Shown here piece after piece: positions 463 to 5,201 of a stretch of 5,201 bases of DNA. Source of the stretch: Candidatus Alcyoniella australis (GTDB lineage Bacteria > Lernaellota > Lernaellaia > JAVCCG01 > Alcyoniellaceae); contig JAVCCG010000065.1 of the NCBI GenBank assembly GCA_030765605.1, positions 1-5,201 on the forward strand, given 5' to 3'. The notes under the pieces are model-generated. The model did not search any database, was not told the origin of the DNA, and saw nothing but the letters and a program-made list of their open reading frames with translations. The first letter of the stretch is position 1, and each line of letters begins with the position of its first letter. The translations under genes were made by a program, and so were the position numbers.

Positions 463-1104
463 ATGAAAATCAGAACCGTTTGCATCGCCGCACTGCTTGT
501 CTTGCTCATGGCCCTGCCGCTCGCGGCCAAAGAGAAGCGCGCCGACGGTCTGCGCATCGGCGCGTATTTGGCGGGCATCGACTACGTGTCGCGCACCGAT
601 GAGTACGAGGGCGGCGACCACAACTACACTTCGCCGGGAATCGGCATCGGCCTGTTAAGCAACGAGGCCCACGGCGGGCTGGTCGCAGGCTACTTCATCA
701 CCAAGAACCACGAGGTCGGCGGCATGGCCACGCTCTACGCCCGCTCATGGACCACGAGCAACGGCGACGACGTGAAAGGCAGCAACAACGGCATCCGCAT
801 CGGCCCGTACTACGATTACAACTTCCAGCTCAATGAAGTAATGAACCCCTTCATCGGCGGCCACCTGGGCCTGTTCCGCATCTCGTCGAAGACCGAGGAC
901 GAGCAGGACGTGACCAGCGGCTGGTTCCTCGGCCCCCAGGGCGGACTGAAGGTCAATATCTACAAGCACGTCTCGCTGGACCTCACCGGCTATATGGACA
1001 TCGGCCGCGGATCGGGCGAGCACAGCAACGAGCACGACTACGATTGGGACATCAGCTTTTGGAACCTGGGAGTCTACGGCGGAATCTCCGTCTACGTTTT
1101 CTAA
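463..1104 (+). CDS. Predicted small outer-membrane beta-barrel protein (213 aa)
   Basis: This is probably an integral outer-membrane protein of unknown cargo or role. A Sec signal peptide (residues 1-22, basic MKIR then a hydrophobic core, likely cleaved after A21-A22) precedes a mature chain of alternating hydrophobic/polar, Gly- and aromatic-rich segments typical of barrel strands. Examples are near 29-42, 58-66, 71-80, 85-96, 110-121, 129-141, 152-180 and 197-213, consistent with roughly eight strands. The chain ends in VYVF; a terminal Phe is the usual barrel-assembly (BAM) signal. Likely loops are acidic (around 45-53, 98-106, 143-150 and 183-196). Length fits the OmpA/OmpW-like small barrels, but I cannot name the family. 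The start at ATG 463 is supported by GGAGGGG (452-458). The gene stands alone and ends before a shared terminator. Confidence 0.8.
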   Translation: MKIRTVCIAALLVLLMALPLAAKEKRADGLRIGAYLAGIDYVSRTDEYEGGDHNYTSPGIGIGLLSNEAHGGLVAGYFITKNHEVGGMATLYARSWTTSNGDDVKGSNNGIRIGPYYDYNFQLNEVMNPFIGGHLGLFRISSKTEDEQDVTSGWFLGPQGGLKVNIYKHVSLDLTGYMDIGRGSGEHSNEHDYDWDISFWNLGVYGGISVYVF

Positions 1105-1130
1105 GCTCCACGACATATCGCGCTTAAAAC

Positions 1131-1162
1131 AAAAGCGCCCCCGTCGGCGGGGGCGCTTTTTT
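1131..1162. terminator. Bidirectional intrinsic terminator between convergent genes
   Basis: A perfect 12-base-pair stem pairs AAAAGCGCCCCC (1131-1142) with GGGGGCGCTTTT (1149-1160) around the six-base loop GTCGGC. On the plus strand it runs into TTTTTT (1157-1162). On the minus strand the stem ends in TTTT followed by GTTTT, so it can stop transcription from both sides. It lies 26 bases after the barrel-protein stop and 25 bases beyond the acyl-CoA synthetase stop. Confidence 0.93.
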
Positions 1163-1185
1163 CGTCTTGATTGCCCTGCGCAGGC

Positions 1186-2937
1186 TCAGCCCTTGGACTC
1201 GCTGTTGGCCTTGACCCAGATCGGGTCGGCCTCCTGCAGCGTGCGGCGCATCACTTTGCCGACCATCGACTTGGGCAGCTCCCCGATCAGCTCGATCGAG
1301 CGCGGAACTTTGTAGTGGGTCAGGTTCTCCTTGGCCCAGGCGCGGATTTCATCGGCCGAAACCTTGCCCCTGTAATCGTCTTTGAGCACGGCCCAGGCCT
1401 TGATGATCTCGCCCGATTGCACGTCGGGCAGTCCGGCCACCGCGACCTCGAGCACTGCCTCGTGTCCCATCAGCAGCGTCTCGACCTCGGTGGGGAACAC
1501 CGAGTAGCCCTTGTACTTGATCAGCTGCTTTTTACGGTCCTCGATGCTCACGCGACCGTGTTCGTCAATGCGGCCGATATCGCCGGTGAGCAGCCAGCGC
1601 TTGCCCTTGGACTCGACGATGGTCTCGGCGGTCTCCTCGGGCTTATTGAGGTAGCCGACCATCACCTGCGGTCCGGCCACGGCCAGTTCGCCGGCCTCGC
1701 CCTGGGGTATGTCCTTTTTCCAGTCGCCGGGATCGACGATCTTCCACTCGGTGCCCGGGAACGGCAGCCCGATGGTGCCGATCTTGCGGTTGCCCCAGAA
1801 CGGGTGGGCCGAGACCACGGGCGTGGACTCGGTTAGGCCGAAGCCCTCGGCCAGGCGCGCGCCGGTGACCTTCTCGAAGGCCTCCTGTACCGGGCGATGC
1901 AGCGGACCCGCGCCGGAGACGCAGAGCTCGAACTTGCCGGCCAGGTCGTATTTATCCACGTCCGGGAACTCGGCGATCCTTTTGAACAGGATCTCGGCCC
2001 CGGGGTACATCGAACCCTCTTCGGGTCCGAGTTCGACGATCTTGCGCAGCAGCTCGCCGGTCTCGGGCGGACGCGGGAAGAGGATCATGTGCGCGCCGAC
2101 CATCAGGCTGATGTTCATCACGCAGGTCATGGCAAAGCTGTGGAACAGCGGCAGCACGCCGATCGACGCGACGCCGGGCTTGGTCTTGAACAGCCAGTGC
2201 TTGGACTGCAGCGCGTTGCTGTAGGTGTTGAAGTGGCTGAGCACCGCGGCCTTGGGCACGCCGGTGGTGCCGCCGGTCATGATGTAGGTCATCACGTCGT
2301 CGGCGGTCATATCGACCTTGGGCGGATTGGGCGCGGCCTTGATCAGATCCCTGAAGCGCAACGCCTGGGGCGGCACCGTGCCGGTGGGGATCTTCTTCAG
2401 CGCCTTGCCCAGCATCTTCTTCAGCGGGCTGATCTTGACCAAGTCCACGACGTTGGTGGCGATTACCTTATCCACCGGGCTCTCGTCGATGATCGGGGCC
2501 ACGGTCGACTCGTAGAGCGAGTCGAGCACCAGCAGGTACTTGGCGCCGATGGTCTTGAGCTGGTGCAGCACCTCGCCGGACTTGTAGGTCGGGTTGATGC
2601 CCGAGGCGATGGCGCCGATCCGCGCGCAGGCGTAATAGCCCACCACGTACTGGAAGCTGTTGGGCAGCAGCATGGTGAACACCTCGCCCTTGCGCACGCC
2701 GATATTGTGCAACGCCGTGGCAAAGCGATCGACCAGCTCGTCGAGCTCCTTGTAGGTGATGTAGCAATCAAGGAACCATACGGCCTTGGCGTCGGGCCAC
2801 TTGCGGGCCGATTCGCGCAACATCTCGCCCATGGTCACCTTGGGAAATTCGATGTTCTTCGGCACCTCGTCGGGCCATCCGGCCTCGGCAGTGAACCAAG
2901 ATCTCGATTCGTCGACGTGGAAAGGATTAGAGCTCAT
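1186..2937 (-). CDS. Long-chain fatty acid--CoA ligase (AMP-forming acyl-CoA synthetase)
   Basis: This activates a carboxylic acid, probably a medium- or long-chain fatty acid, with ATP to acyl-AMP and then acyl-CoA. It feeds beta-oxidation or lipid synthesis in the cytoplasm or at the inner membrane. All ANL-superfamily core motifs are present in order: the P-loop TGGTTGVPK (221-229), PLFHSF (263-268), GFGLTES (365-371), TGD (451-453), the hinge DRKK with QLIKYKG (467-477), and the C-terminal PKSMVGK with the expected catalytic Lys561. The 583-residue length is full for FadD-like enzymes. Substrate chain length cannot be read from sequence by eye. The start ATG at 2937 follows AGGGGGG (2942-2948). 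The gene is monocistronic here, divergent from the winged-helix protein, with a palindrome-rich promoter that suggests repressor control. Only the AMP-binding family and CoA-ligase fold are firm; aryl- or other acyl substrates remain possible. Confidence 0.93.
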   Translation of the reverse strand: MSSNPFHVDESRSWFTAEAGWPDEVPKNIEFPKVTMGEMLRESARKWPDAKAVWFLDCYITYKELDELVDRFATALHNIGVRKGEVFTMLLPNSFQYVVGYYACARIGAIASGINPTYKSGEVLHQLKTIGAKYLLVLDSLYESTVAPIIDESPVDKVIATNVVDLVKISPLKKMLGKALKKIPTGTVPPQALRFRDLIKAAPNPPKVDMTADDVMTYIMTGGTTGVPKAAVLSHFNTYSNALQSKHWLFKTKPGVASIGVLPLFHSFAMTCVMNISLMVGAHMILFPRPPETGELLRKIVELGPEEGSMYPGAEILFKRIAEFPDVDKYDLAGKFELCVSGAGPLHRPVQEAFEKVTGARLAEGFGLTESTPVVSAHPFWGNRKIGTIGLPFPGTEWKIVDPGDWKKDIPQGEAGELAVAGPQVMVGYLNKPEETAETIVESKGKRWLLTGDIGRIDEHGRVSIEDRKKQLIKYKGYSVFPTEVETLLMGHEAVLEVAVAGLPDVQSGEIIKAWAVLKDDYRGKVSADEIRAWAKENLTHYKVPRSIELIGELPKSMVGKVMRRTLQEADPIWVKANSESKG

Positions 2938-2987
2938 ACCGCCCCCCTAATTGAGCACTGCCGTGCTATTTCATCTGGTTGATTCGT

Positions 2988-3039
2988 ACCGGTTGAGCGC
3001 TCATTTAAACCGGATCGCCAAACTTTGTAAAGACCGGTC
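2988..3039 (-). promoter_or_regulatory. Predicted promoter and operator-like palindromes of the acyl-CoA synthetase gene
   Basis: On the minus strand TTTACA (3026-3031, 5 of 6 to TTGACA) is followed after 17 bases by TTAAAT (3003-3008, 4 of 6 to TATAAT). This places the transcript start near 2996 with a leader of about 60 bases. A perfect 10-base palindrome, TGAGCGCTCA (2994-3003), touches the -10 and covers the start point. A second inverted repeat has arms CCGGTT (2989-2994) and AACCGG (3008-3013). GACCGGTC (3032-3039) is palindromic and abuts the -35. This layout suits a dimeric repressor such as a TetR- or GntR-type fatty-acid regulator, but no regulator is identified. Confidence 0.5.
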
Positions 3040-3114
3040 AGGCTGCGCGCTTCCCTTGATCCGCGCGCCTGCTGTATGCTGAGCTGTCACTGTCAATATT
3101 AGCGAGGAATGAAG

Positions 3115-3684
3115 ATGGCCGACAATGAGCAGCTTGTGGACCAGGCCGAGCTGTTCTGCGCCGCGCTCAAGGTGCTATGCCACCGCGAGCACAAGGCTCC
3201 CAGCGCAGTCGAAATCGGCGCGGAGGTCGGCATTGCGCGCGAACGCGCGCACTATCTGGCCAACCGTCTGGAAGAAGTCGGCGCGATCCGCATCGTGCCC
3301 ACGGCCTTTGACGAGCGGATCTACCTCGAGGACTGGGTTAAGGTCGGCCAGCTGCGCGATCGCCAGGCCCCGCCCAAGGTCGAACAACTCGAACAGCAGC
3401 AGCAGTCCCAACGCGACGAGCTGTCCAAGCAGATCGACGCCCGTTTCGACCCCAAGGTCCGCGCCGGGGATAAGCAGGCCCTGTTCGCCGAGTTGCAGGC
3501 CAGGCTGCGCGACCCCAACGCCAATAAAAAGCCCAACCCCCTGGATGCGCTCGGACCTCGGGCCGACCAACAAGAGACCCAGCAGACCCAACAGGCCCAG
3601 CAGACCCAGCAGTCCCCGGACGAGCAAGCTCAAGACGAGCAGCCCCAAGACCAACCGCAGCAGGACGATCCGCCGAGCGAATAG
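3115..3684 (+). CDS. Winged-helix-like protein with Gln-rich C-terminal tail (189 aa)
   Basis: Function is unknown. Residues 7-75 read as a small winged helix-turn-helix domain: helix AELFCAALKVLC, then a HTH-like segment (about 28-55, with EIGAEVGIARERAHYLANRL), then GAIRIV and a short hairpin (61-73) that would be the wing. Residues 82-132 are charged and Gln-rich and could form a coiled coil. From 151 onward the tail is low complexity, with four xQQ triplets (155-166) and then D/E/Q/P repeats. It could bind DNA or serve as a protein-interaction adaptor using the winged helix. I chose ATG 3115 over ATG 3109 because GAGGA (3104-3108) is six bases from the former and directly abuts the latter. 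Third codon positions are GC-rich throughout, which supports this frame over the Ser/Arg-rich overlapping frame. Divergence from the acyl-CoA synthetase gene makes cross-regulation possible but unproven. Confidence 0.75.
   Translation: MADNEQLVDQAELFCAALKVLCHREHKAPSAVEIGAEVGIARERAHYLANRLEEVGAIRIVPTAFDERIYLEDWVKVGQLRDRQAPPKVEQLEQQQQSQRDELSKQIDARFDPKVRAGDKQALFAELQARLRDPNANKKPNPLDALGPRADQQETQQTQQAQQTQQSPDEQAQDEQPQDQPQQDDPPSE
3577..3612 (+). repeat. Nine-base tandem repeat encoding xQQ triplets
   Basis: Four copies of a nine-base unit close to ACC-CAG-CAG lie in frame and encode TQQ TQQ AQQ TQQ. Synonymous CAA/CAG changes and one ACC-to-GCC change show it is not a fresh duplication. Because the unit is a multiple of three, slippage would lengthen or shorten the tail without breaking the frame. 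Confidence 0.8.
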
Positions 3685-3693
3685 CCCGGCAAC

Positions 3694-3769
3694 GCCCGCG
3701 GGCCGCGCAGATCCATTAAAAATCTGAACAGGCCCGGGTCGAACCCGGGCCATGACCGTTTAAGAACGG
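3694..3769. terminator. Stem-loop cluster after the winged-helix gene, possible terminator
   Basis: Four inverted repeats follow one another: the palindrome GCCCGCGGGC (3694-3703); CAGAT (3708-3712) with ATCTG (3722-3726); a perfect nine-base-pair stem GGCCCGGGT (3731-3739) with ACCCGGGCC (3743-3751) and a three-base loop; and CCGTT (3756-3760) with AACGG (3765-3769). None has a T-run right after it on the plus strand. On the minus strand the strong stem is followed eight bases later by TTTTT. The cluster may end transcription from either side or protect the 3' end, but it is not a canonical intrinsic terminator. Confidence 0.4.
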
Positions 3770-3877
3770 CCGATGCCCACTAAATTAGGGCCATGGCTCG
3801 CCGTACCGAATCACACGGCGCCGGACCCTGCAGCAGAAGGAGGCACTCCCAAACAAGGGCCGGACAGACCGTCGTGC
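3770..3877. other. Intergenic stretch without a recognisable feature
   Basis: This lies between the stem-loop cluster and the stop codon of the minus-strand orphan gene. An AAGGAGG (3838-3844) looks like a ribosome binding site on the plus strand, but no start codon follows at a usable distance. Nothing else stands out. Confidence 0.4.
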
Positions 3878-4111
3878 TCAGTTGAAACCGAGCTCCAAAT
3901 ACAACTCTTGCATCAGGCGGCTGCGAACCAATCCCACCAGTTCGTCGCCCAGCTCGGTCACCACCTCGGGCCGTAGCTTGATGTGCCCCAGATGTTCGCG
4001 GTGAGTGGGCTCGTAGCTGGCCAGCGCGATCAGCTCCTGGTCGCTGAGCTCCACTCCCCGCTCGTTTCTGCGGCGCCAGCGGTCGAGGTCTCGCAGCAGC
4101 ATCAGATACAT
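3878..4111 (-). CDS. Hypothetical protein, small and helical (77 aa)
   Basis: I do not recognise this protein. It opens MYLMLLRDLDRWRRRNERG, is rich in charged and Leu residues, has no cysteines, no signal peptide and no clear membrane segment, and reads as mostly helical. The second half (EVVTELGDELVGLVRSRL) looks like an amphipathic helix. Coding is supported by strongly GC-biased third positions and by GGAGAG (4116-4121) placed well for ATG 4111. An upstream in-frame ATG (4138) and TTG (4144) lack a ribosome binding site, and the ATG overlaps a possible promoter, so I prefer the shorter form. The gene stands alone and is divergent from the PH-like gene. Confidence 0.62.
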   Translation of the reverse strand: MYLMLLRDLDRWRRRNERGVELSDQELIALASYEPTHREHLGHIKLRPEVVTELGDELVGLVRSRLMQELYLELGFN

Positions 4112-4133
4112 TGTTCTCTCCGTTTCGATTCTC

Positions 4134-4163
4134 GACATAAGCAATTAGCAAGGGGCATACCAA
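4134..4163 (-). promoter_or_regulatory. Possible promoter of the 77-aa gene
   Basis: On the minus strand TTGGTA (4158-4163, 4 of 6) is followed after 18 bases by TATGTC (4134-4139, 3 of 6). The A-rich run just upstream (minus-strand A-tracts across 4165-4206) would suit an UP element. The predicted start near 4128 is consistent with translation from 4111. The match is weak. Confidence 0.28.
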
Positions 4164-4164
4164 C

Positions 4165-4206
4165 TTTTGCTTTTTGCTTATTTTTTATTTTTACGTCTGT
4201 TTTATA
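4165..4206. other. AT-rich island between divergent genes
   Basis: About 42 bases are almost entirely T and A on the plus strand, including TTTTGC/TTTTTGC repeats and long T-runs, in otherwise GC-rich DNA. It sits between two divergent genes and probably serves as an UP element, bent DNA or a nucleoid-protein site. The GC-rich stretch that follows (4245-4335) can form local hairpins, for example GGGCG (4306-4310) with CGCCC (4315-4319), but shows no gene. Confidence 0.5.
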
Positions 4207-4345
4207 GGGAGTTTTTCAGCACAGAGTACACAGCTGGAACCAGGCGCAGTGACCCCGGCCCTCCAGATTCCGGACCGCGGCGTTCGATTGTCGGAGCGCG
4301 GATTGGGGCGCGAGCGCCCTGCCCCTGTCTGGAATTGAGTTTCGC

Positions 4346-4354
4346 TGGTAGAAT
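4346..4354 (+). promoter_or_regulatory. Extended -10 promoter of the PH-like gene
   Basis: TGGTAGAAT combines the TGn extension (4346-4348) with TAGAAT (4349-4354), a 5 of 6 match to TATAAT. The -35 region near 4325-4330 (CTGTCT) is weak, as is common for extended -10 promoters. The transcript would start near 4361, about 20 bases before the chosen start codon. That excludes the in-frame ATG at 4353. Confidence 0.55.
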
Positions 4355-4379
4355 GCTTTTCCCAACCATGGAGAGCGCG

Positions 4380-4862
4380 ATGGTGCTGTTTATTAAAATC
4401 CTGTTGTCAGCGTTGATCGTCGTTTTACTGGCGATCGCGGTTATTAAATCGATCGCCGGGTTCGTCAAACTATCGATGGCCGCGCGAATCGCGCAGAAGT
4501 TCCAGCAGCAGGAAGTGCTGATGCACGATGTTCAGGCCAACTTCATCGGCCTGGAATCCAAGGGGGAGCAACAGACGCGGGGCAACGGCGCGCTGCTGCT
4601 TACCGAGCGCGAGCTGTGGTTCCTGCGGGCCAAGCCCAAGCTCGAGCTCTCGATCCCGATGAACAACATCAAGGATTTCGGCCTGAAGAAGTATCACGCC
4701 GGGACCTCACTGGGCGTTCCGCTGCTCTACGTTCATTTCATCACCGAGACCGGCGAGGAGACCGTGGCCTGGTCGGTGCGCAAGGCCGAGGATTGGATCA
4801 ACAGCTTGGAGAGCGCCACGGGCAGACCCTCGGACCAGTCGCTGCAACTTCCCGCGATCTGA
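4380..4862 (+). CDS. Membrane-anchored protein with probable PH/GRAM-like domain (160 aa)
   Basis: Role unknown. Residues 4-28 form one hydrophobic helix (ILLSALIVVLLAIAVIKSIA) that would anchor the protein in the inner membrane. The Arg/Lys just after it favour a cytoplasmic soluble domain. A short helical linker (33-50) leads to a beta-rich domain (about 52-145) with strand-like segments ANFIGLE, GALLLTERELWFLRA, LELSIPMNNIKDF, PLLYVHFITE and ETVAWSV, closed by the helix KAEDWINSLES. The pattern 'new reading in lab units, then strand, then Ile-x-x-Ile, then terminal helix' is typical of bacterial PH-like and GRAM-like domains, so I infer that fold without assigning a ligand. The start ATG 4380 has GGAG (4370-4373) six bases upstream. 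ATG 4368 is a possible alternative and ATG 4353 falls inside the promoter. A non-coding tail rich in stem-loops follows. Confidence 0.7.
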   Translation: MVLFIKILLSALIVVLLAIAVIKSIAGFVKLSMAARIAQKFQQQEVLMHDVQANFIGLESKGEQQTRGNGALLLTERELWFLRAKPKLELSIPMNNIKDFGLKKYHAGTSLGVPLLYVHFITETGEETVAWSVRKAEDWINSLESATGRPSDQSLQLPAI

Positions 4863-4880
4863 CGATGTGTGGGTGTGGGG
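4863..4880 (+). other. G-rich spacer after the PH-like gene
   Basis: The stretch from the stop codon to the first palindrome contains GGGTGTGGGG (4871-4880) and no promoter-like signal. The structured region beyond it could therefore be transcribed as the 3' tail of the PH-like mRNA. Confidence 0.4.
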
Positions 4881-4911
4881 AATATTGTTGTTCAACAATA
4901 TTGGTGGGCGC
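4881..4911. repeat. Palindromic element, copy 1
   Basis: Arms AATATTGTTG (4881-4890) and CAACAATATT (4893-4902) pair perfectly around TT. GG-T-GGGCGC follows. G-tracts lie on both sides (GGGTGTGGGG before, GGTGGG after). It shares its stem and the GGCGC flank with the copy at 5098-5129. No T-run follows, so it is not a classical terminator. Confidence 0.85.
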
Positions 4912-4926
4912 GAGCAGGGCCGACTA

Positions 4927-4947
4927 TGAGCCGGTGCAAAGCTCGCG
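4927..4947 (+). repeat. GC-rich direct repeat, copy 1
   Basis: TGAGCCGG, then T, then GCAAA, then G, then CTCGCG. The copy at 5020-5041 has the same blocks with one extra base and one substitution. It forms the 3' half of a small hairpin and the spacer after it. Confidence 0.75.
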
Positions 4948-5019
4948 GCAGCTTGGAGCTGCAGCAATGCACGCGAGCAACCATGGTCATAATCCAACGA
5001 GCCTCTCCGCGCCCGGCTT

Positions 5020-5041
5020 TGAGCCGGGGGCAAAACTCGCG
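5020..5041 (+). repeat. GC-rich direct repeat, copy 2
   Basis: TGAGCCGG, then GG, then GCAAA, then A, then CTCGCG. It lies 93 bases after copy 1. Both copies are preceded at similar distances by CGAGC-N4-CCG, which points to a longer degenerate duplicated unit of about 93 bases. The hairpin preceding the GCAAA block is perfect here and has one mismatch in copy 1. Confidence 0.75.
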
Positions 5042-5097
5042 TAGTCCTCTGGTCGTAGCGCCACGACTTTCTCCGCATCGAAAAATGGGAGGAGGGT

Positions 5098-5129
5098 AAT
5101 AATGTTGAATAACATTATTGGGTAGGCGC
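5098..5129. repeat. Palindromic element, copy 2
   Basis: Arms AATAATGTT (5098-5106) and AACATTATT (5111-5119) pair perfectly around GAAT. GGG-T-A-GGCGC follows, and GGGAGGAGGG (5087-5096) precedes it. Compared with copy 1, the fifth base and its pairing partner both changed, so the stem is kept. Its 3' flank runs into the terminator stem. Confidence 0.85.
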
Positions 5130-5156
5130 TCGGCTGAAATCAGGTTGAGCTTTTTT
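5128..5156 (+). terminator. Intrinsic terminator closing the structured region
   Basis: GCTCGG (5128-5133) pairs with TTGAGC (5145-5150) using two G-U pairs. The stem continues as CTG (5134-5136) with CAG (5141-5143) after a bulged G, and is capped by AAAT. TTTTTT (5151-5156) follows immediately. This points to plus-strand transcription through the upstream structured region. Confidence 0.72.
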
Positions 5157-5174
5157 CGGATTGCCGGTCCGAAA
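5154..5174. other. Additional hairpin beyond the terminator
   Basis: TTTCGGA (5154-5160) pairs with TCCGAAA (5168-5174) around a seven-base loop. It overlaps the T-run of the preceding terminator, so the two cannot both form fully. No T-run follows. The last bases of the window (5175-5201) show no gene or promoter that I can support. Confidence 0.45.
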
Positions 5175-5201
5175 TACGTTGAGATAGTTGTCTGGTTCGC
5201 A

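Follow-up and report, generated by a model that had tools for sequence, protein, structure and literature searches.

The two palindromes in this contig of Candidatus Alcyoniella australis are probably copies of one hairpin, here called H1, that forms the constant left end of a lineage-specific, non-autonomous, mosaic interspersed repeat of the REPIN/BIME/BOX kind. Copy number, fixed module order, extragenic placement, folding and near-identical copies in unrelated flanks support this reading directly. To our knowledge, the repeat family is previously undescribed. It is a large family that has been active recently, in a bacterial lineage that is thinly sampled.

The window, meaning the whole stretch of DNA analyzed, spans the whole of contig C65 (5201 bases), and 82 bases separate the second H1 copy from the contig end (Table 1). 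Direct reading confirms to the base the two palindromes and the differences between them that were described in the initial annotation: the 24-mers at 4881-4904 and 5098-5121 mismatch at bases 5, 11-13 and 18 and nowhere else, with bases 5 and 18 switching jointly from T-A to A-T. Both copies lie between G-tracts, as had been reported, with GGTGGG and GGGTAGG on their right sides. GGCGC is present after both, although not immediately, since it starts four and five bases beyond the stem (4907-4911 and 5125-5129). H1 copy 2 opens a second element inside the first, and the window thus contains one element nested within another. The core remainder and the right-end hairpin (H3) of the second element are absent from the assembly, where the contig stops at 5201.

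Table 1. Repeat modules at the right end of the window.
Feature	Position	Strand	Basis or remark
G-tract GTGTGGGTGTGGGG, to the left of H1 copy 1	4867-4880	+	4 bases past the stop codon of ORF 4380-4862
H1 copy 1, AATATTGTTGTTCAACAATATT; pair 5/18 T-A, loop GTTC	4881-4902	+	Sequence reading, genome pattern search
GGTGGGCGCGAGC, conserved 5' side of core stem	4903-4915	+	Opposite GCGAGCCTACACAC before H3 in complete elements
REP-like hairpin GCAGCTTGGAGCTGC	4948-4962	+	Sequence reading; hairpin type common to many loci
REP-like hairpin CCCGGCTTTGAGCCGGG	5012-5028	+	Sequence reading; type also in other loci
Outer REP-like unit GTCGTGGCGCTACGACCAGAGGACTACGCGAG	5036-5067	-	One of more than 100 genome copies
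G-tract GGGAGGAGGGT before H1 copy 2	5087-5097	+	
H1 copy 2, AATAATGTTGAATAACATTATT; pair 5/18 A-T, loop GAAT	5098-5119	+	Opens second element inside first
Start of D-type core (GGGTAGGCGCTCGGCTGAAATCAG...)	5120-5201	+	Core shared with about a dozen other copies

The stop codon of ORF 4380-4862 is followed by 18 bases and then the start of H1 copy 1. This ORF encodes a membrane-anchored protein of 160 amino acids without a Pfam match, which has a single distant paralogue (24%) elsewhere in the genome. Further upstream, a Gln-rich tandem repeat of the CAGCAGACC type with a 9-base period (3571-3660) lies at the C-terminus of ORF 3109-3684.

Further copies of the stem pattern are abundant in the genome. 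The H1 pattern, AATAnTGTT-N4-AACAnTATT, reads as a stem of 9-10 bp with a loop of 2-4 bases and has 35 exact matches in 4.29 Mb (157 contigs, 62% G+C), against a chance expectation of 3e-5 from base composition and no match for the reversed-pattern control. Five near matches bring the total to 40 at up to two mismatches, decayed copies included. The flanks are similarly regular, with at least seven G among the preceding 12 bases in 35 of the 40 copies and GGTR within 6 bases on the right in 36. The earlier proposal of a repeated structured element, as opposed to random AT-rich DNA, is upheld by these roughly 40 copies, by a fixed partner hairpin and by strong folding.

The partner hairpin, H3, is a second palindrome (AAAGATCGn-N4-nCGATCTTT; AAAGATCGnTTTnnCGATCTTT) with about 55 copies in the genome. 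Whenever H1 and H3 co-occur, the order is fixed as G-tract, H1, GGTRGGCGCGAGC, core, GCGAGCCTACACAC, H3 and C-tract, giving the consensus layout G-tract - H1 - GGTRGGC(G)CGAGC - core - (G)GCGAGCCTACACAC - H3 - C-tract. Of the H3 sites that lie 700 bp or less from an H1, all 15 are downstream of it, none upstream, and 14 share its reading direction; for the remaining one (L016:2113) the orientation was probably misassigned. GCGAGCCTACACAC precedes H3, a C-tract follows it in 48 of 58 cases, and the immediate flanks are GGGT/GGTR for H1 and ACAC/ACCC for H3. The H1-to-H3 distance varies from 23 to 591 bp because different cores, single or chained with GC-rich hairpins, occupy the gap; each core is self-folding and made of a single long imperfect hairpin or several. 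About 14 complete elements are readable, since many copies run into contig ends.

Outside the tracts lies an outer REP-like unit, GTCGTnGnnnTACGACCAGCGnnCTRCGCGAG, with more than 100 copies in the genome. These units often stand inverted on both sides of an element, as read in several cases, and also occur alone. About 10 REP-like hairpin units are arrayed directly behind a tRNA gene (661-743) at another locus (L039:735-1454), where two more tRNA genes lie on the other strand at 1527-1684.

Folding of complete elements, as DNA and as RNA, is stronger than that of all 100-200 dinucleotide shuffles, with z-scores from -5.0 to -9.8. Individual values are -6.6 for L018:1659-1930 (DNA), -5.4 (RNA) and -5.0 (DNA) for L025:2519-2792, and -9.8 for L038:3182-3725 (RNA). 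In most of these predictions the tracts form a closing stem that encloses H1, the core hairpin or hairpins and H3, each as an arm of its own, suggesting that complete elements can fold as multi-arm, cloverleaf-like junctions. The window fragment, which is without its right half, reaches a z-score of -3.3 against shuffles, partly through pairing of H1 copy 1 with H1 copy 2. Core stems are specific to each element, pairing at -25.9 kcal/mol with their own partner versus -22.4 kcal/mol with those of other elements (0 of 2000 permutations). Co-evolution of the G-tract and C-tract as a stem is not supported by a swap test, in which the two tracts of one element pair no better than tracts swapped between elements (p 0.71), and the closing-stem part of the model consequently rests on composition only. 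Two other readings of the hairpin were considered. In a G-quadruplex with H1 as its loop, the second G-tract would often be GG only, and an intrinsic terminator is rejected on the AT-rich H1 stem and the lack of a T-run after it.

The elements are largely extragenic and have spread through the genome. Outside predicted ORFs lie 36 of the 40 H1 copies, in fetched sequence that is about 86% ORF by a simple ORF caller. Most copies are found at the 3' ends of genes or in the gap between convergent ones, many of them just past a stop codon. Copies at different loci with unrelated flanks are 92.0-96.3% identical over 321-440 bp, which indicates recent spread, and one such inter-locus alignment terminates at the G-tract. 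Many copies sit near contig ends, as is usual for multi-copy repeats, and repeats in this position are probably part of why such genomes assemble poorly. At one locus on contig C5 (L018:1659-1930), the element separates two divergent genes, both of which have a TATAAT-like box very near the start codon; boxes so close to the start look like leaderless transcription.

Copy number and near-identity demonstrate that the repeat has spread, and we infer the route as follows. A single strand, either the lagging-strand template or a transcript, would fold with H1, the core hairpin or hairpins and H3 as arms and the G-tract and C-tract as the closing stem. An enzyme encoded elsewhere might then copy or move the folded strand, after which the element would decay and nest at tolerated sites behind genes. 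Neither an empty site nor a transposition intermediate was found, nor a target-site duplication, the last judged by eye in complete copies.

The repeat appears confined to its own lineage. The H1 pattern is absent from all six same-class genomes examined, the class being sampled by seven genomes, and has one match, a lone site, in 54 other genomes. H1 with its GGTRGGCG flank finds no match in the named-genome collection, and the whole element finds none among plasmids. In two same-class genomes, sampled over about 160 kb each, no multi-copy hairpin of the H1-element kind is seen in the sampled sequence. No orthologous site was found in the relatives examined, where ORF 4380-4862 reaches just a 27% match, in one same-class genome. 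The sole virus-record match for H1 with its flank is IMGVR_UViG_3300035698_015017 (L116:1-5250), whose first 104 bases are identical to an H1 element on contig C131 and which is phage from about base 105. Its ORFs include a repressor-like one (961-1677, minus strand) and a DDE-transposase-like one (2427-4442, plus strand), and the phage resembles the Mu type from reading of its ORFs alone. The record is a Mu-like transposable phage inserted in the repeat core of a near-identical strain in that metagenome, and the junction gives no sign that the repeat itself is viral.

The best candidate mobilizer, by analogy, is the single RAYT (REP-associated tyrosine transposase) of the genome. This gene (C95:13418-13864, minus strand; L117) is intact in a 215-codon open frame and matches NF047646 at equivalog level, with 146 bits against a cut-off of 80. 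A strict REPIN system, in which this RAYT recognizes the hairpins and a GTRG tag in single-stranded DNA and mobilizes the elements, is possible, if doubtful. In the outer REP-like units, GTAG or GCAG adjoins the hairpin (the reverse complement of CTRCGCG), and GTRG stands at the 5' base of the core stem, where it is paired; none stands 5' of H1. The Marinomonas TnpA-REP tolerates GTGG in place of GTAG for cleavage (PMC8266576). However, the tag is not invariant, no repeat surrounds C95:13478-13834, and no similarity to the repeats was found in the 7.5 kb stretch that contains the RAYT gene. RAYT-like genes are also present in all six same-class genomes (2-16 matches each), although the element was not found there. 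Given a RAYT with no repeats beside it and repeat-free relatives with RAYT-like genes, the RAYT link is a lead by analogy.

A DDE transposon, lost or unassembled, is an unlikely source of the elements. As its MITE-like derivatives, they would use the G-tract and REP-like part as terminal inverted repeats, which agrees with outer parts that flank the element in inverted orientation (CGCGTCGnAAGATGGGGGAGGGT and its reverse complement), the multiple copies and the near-identical cores. Against this, element ends are ragged: L030 and L031 have no G-tract between the gene and H1, and the stop codon overlaps H1 there. Complete copies show no fixed target duplication by eye, and no transposase ORF lies between H1 and H3, where cores measure at most 591 bp.

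The initial annotation took the paired change in the stem as evidence of selection on structure. The change is real: pair 5/18 is A-T in 31, T-A in 7 and broken in 2 of the 40 H1 copies, and pair 9/14 of H3 is A-T in 28, T-A in 27 and otherwise in 3 of 58 copies. The remaining stem pairs are near-invariant, partly by construction, as the searches required those letters within two or three mismatches. The conclusion drawn from the change, in contrast, was too strong. A single H1 stem pair varies, and copies with the D-type core carry both H1 states (8 A-T, 3 T-A), indicating that the switch occurred within a subfamily or that modules were exchanged. Template switching between hairpin arms makes arms alike, inverts the loop and can yield paired changes (PMC8604942, PMC8794818). 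The H1 copy in L020 has an inverted loop, which is a mark of template switching. Selection on structure would explain the paired changes, but template switching could produce them without selection, which leaves the step from one to the other insecure. Multi-copy DNA palindromes can in general show paired changes without selection on structure, which calls for caution elsewhere.

A functional RNA or DNA element whose structure is under selection, such as a 3' UTR stabilizer, a terminator-like hairpin or a site for a chromosome-organizing protein, would account for the pairs kept in H1 and H3 and for placement behind genes. Its probability is low, considering that nothing of the kind was found in the same class, that Rfam gives no match in the window and tRNA genes alone in seven element loci, that decayed copies persist (L084, L091), and that L020 carries an inverted loop, the mark of template switching, a process that also explains paired changes without selection. 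A more speculative form of the mobile-repeat reading, to which we give similarly little weight, is a new composite class moving as single strands, in which H1 and H3 frame an exchangeable core in a four-way-junction fold and the enzyme recognizes the junction rather than a terminal repeat. If true, junction recognition would allow the swapping of cores and the nesting of elements. The operator pair for a dimeric regulator suggested earlier, despite perfect dyads and AT-rich half-sites, is highly improbable for some 40 copies that lie mostly away from promoters and always within a larger repeat, to two copies of which the window pair belongs and in which the unrelated sequence H3 plays the equivalent layout role.

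The mosaic interspersed repeat can be compared with REPINs, in which inverted extragenic REP hairpins around a spacer form one large predicted hairpin in single-stranded DNA or mRNA (Bertels and Rainey 2011, PMC3116915). Shared features are the high-copy, extragenic, inverted REP-like hairpins (more than 100 units here) and the single-copy RAYT in the genome. Here, however, two unlike constant palindromes flank a long swappable core to give a multi-arm junction, the GTAG tag is not invariant, and the RAYT is not flanked by repeats (no REPtron). BIMEs, the REP mosaics of enterobacteria, are likewise intergenic and built of several palindromic modules in alternating orientation, but their sequences are unrelated, and the present repeat adds a left/right-asymmetric unit that carries AT-rich hairpins. 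BOX elements of Streptococcus pneumoniae have the structure boxA-boxB(n)-boxC. The resemblance to BOX is one of layout, with constant ends, variable internal modules and a large predicted stem-loop, and no sequence relation is known. In the present repeat, several unlike hairpins serve as internal modules and each end has a hairpin of its own. CGTC-tagged REPs and the Rickettsia RPE are short palindromes, occurring as single hairpins or dimers, with no dedicated transposase known (PMC3733652). They share AT pairs at the stem base, stems of 8-9 bp and loops of 4-5 with the present hairpins, but the H1 and H3 ends lack the CGTC tag (TGTC, CCTC) and belong to a junction with a core. A literature search on cloverleaf interspersed repeats found no paper, and the element layout appears new. 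With their unlike constant end hairpins and exchangeable cores, these elements extend the REPIN/BIME/BOX theme.
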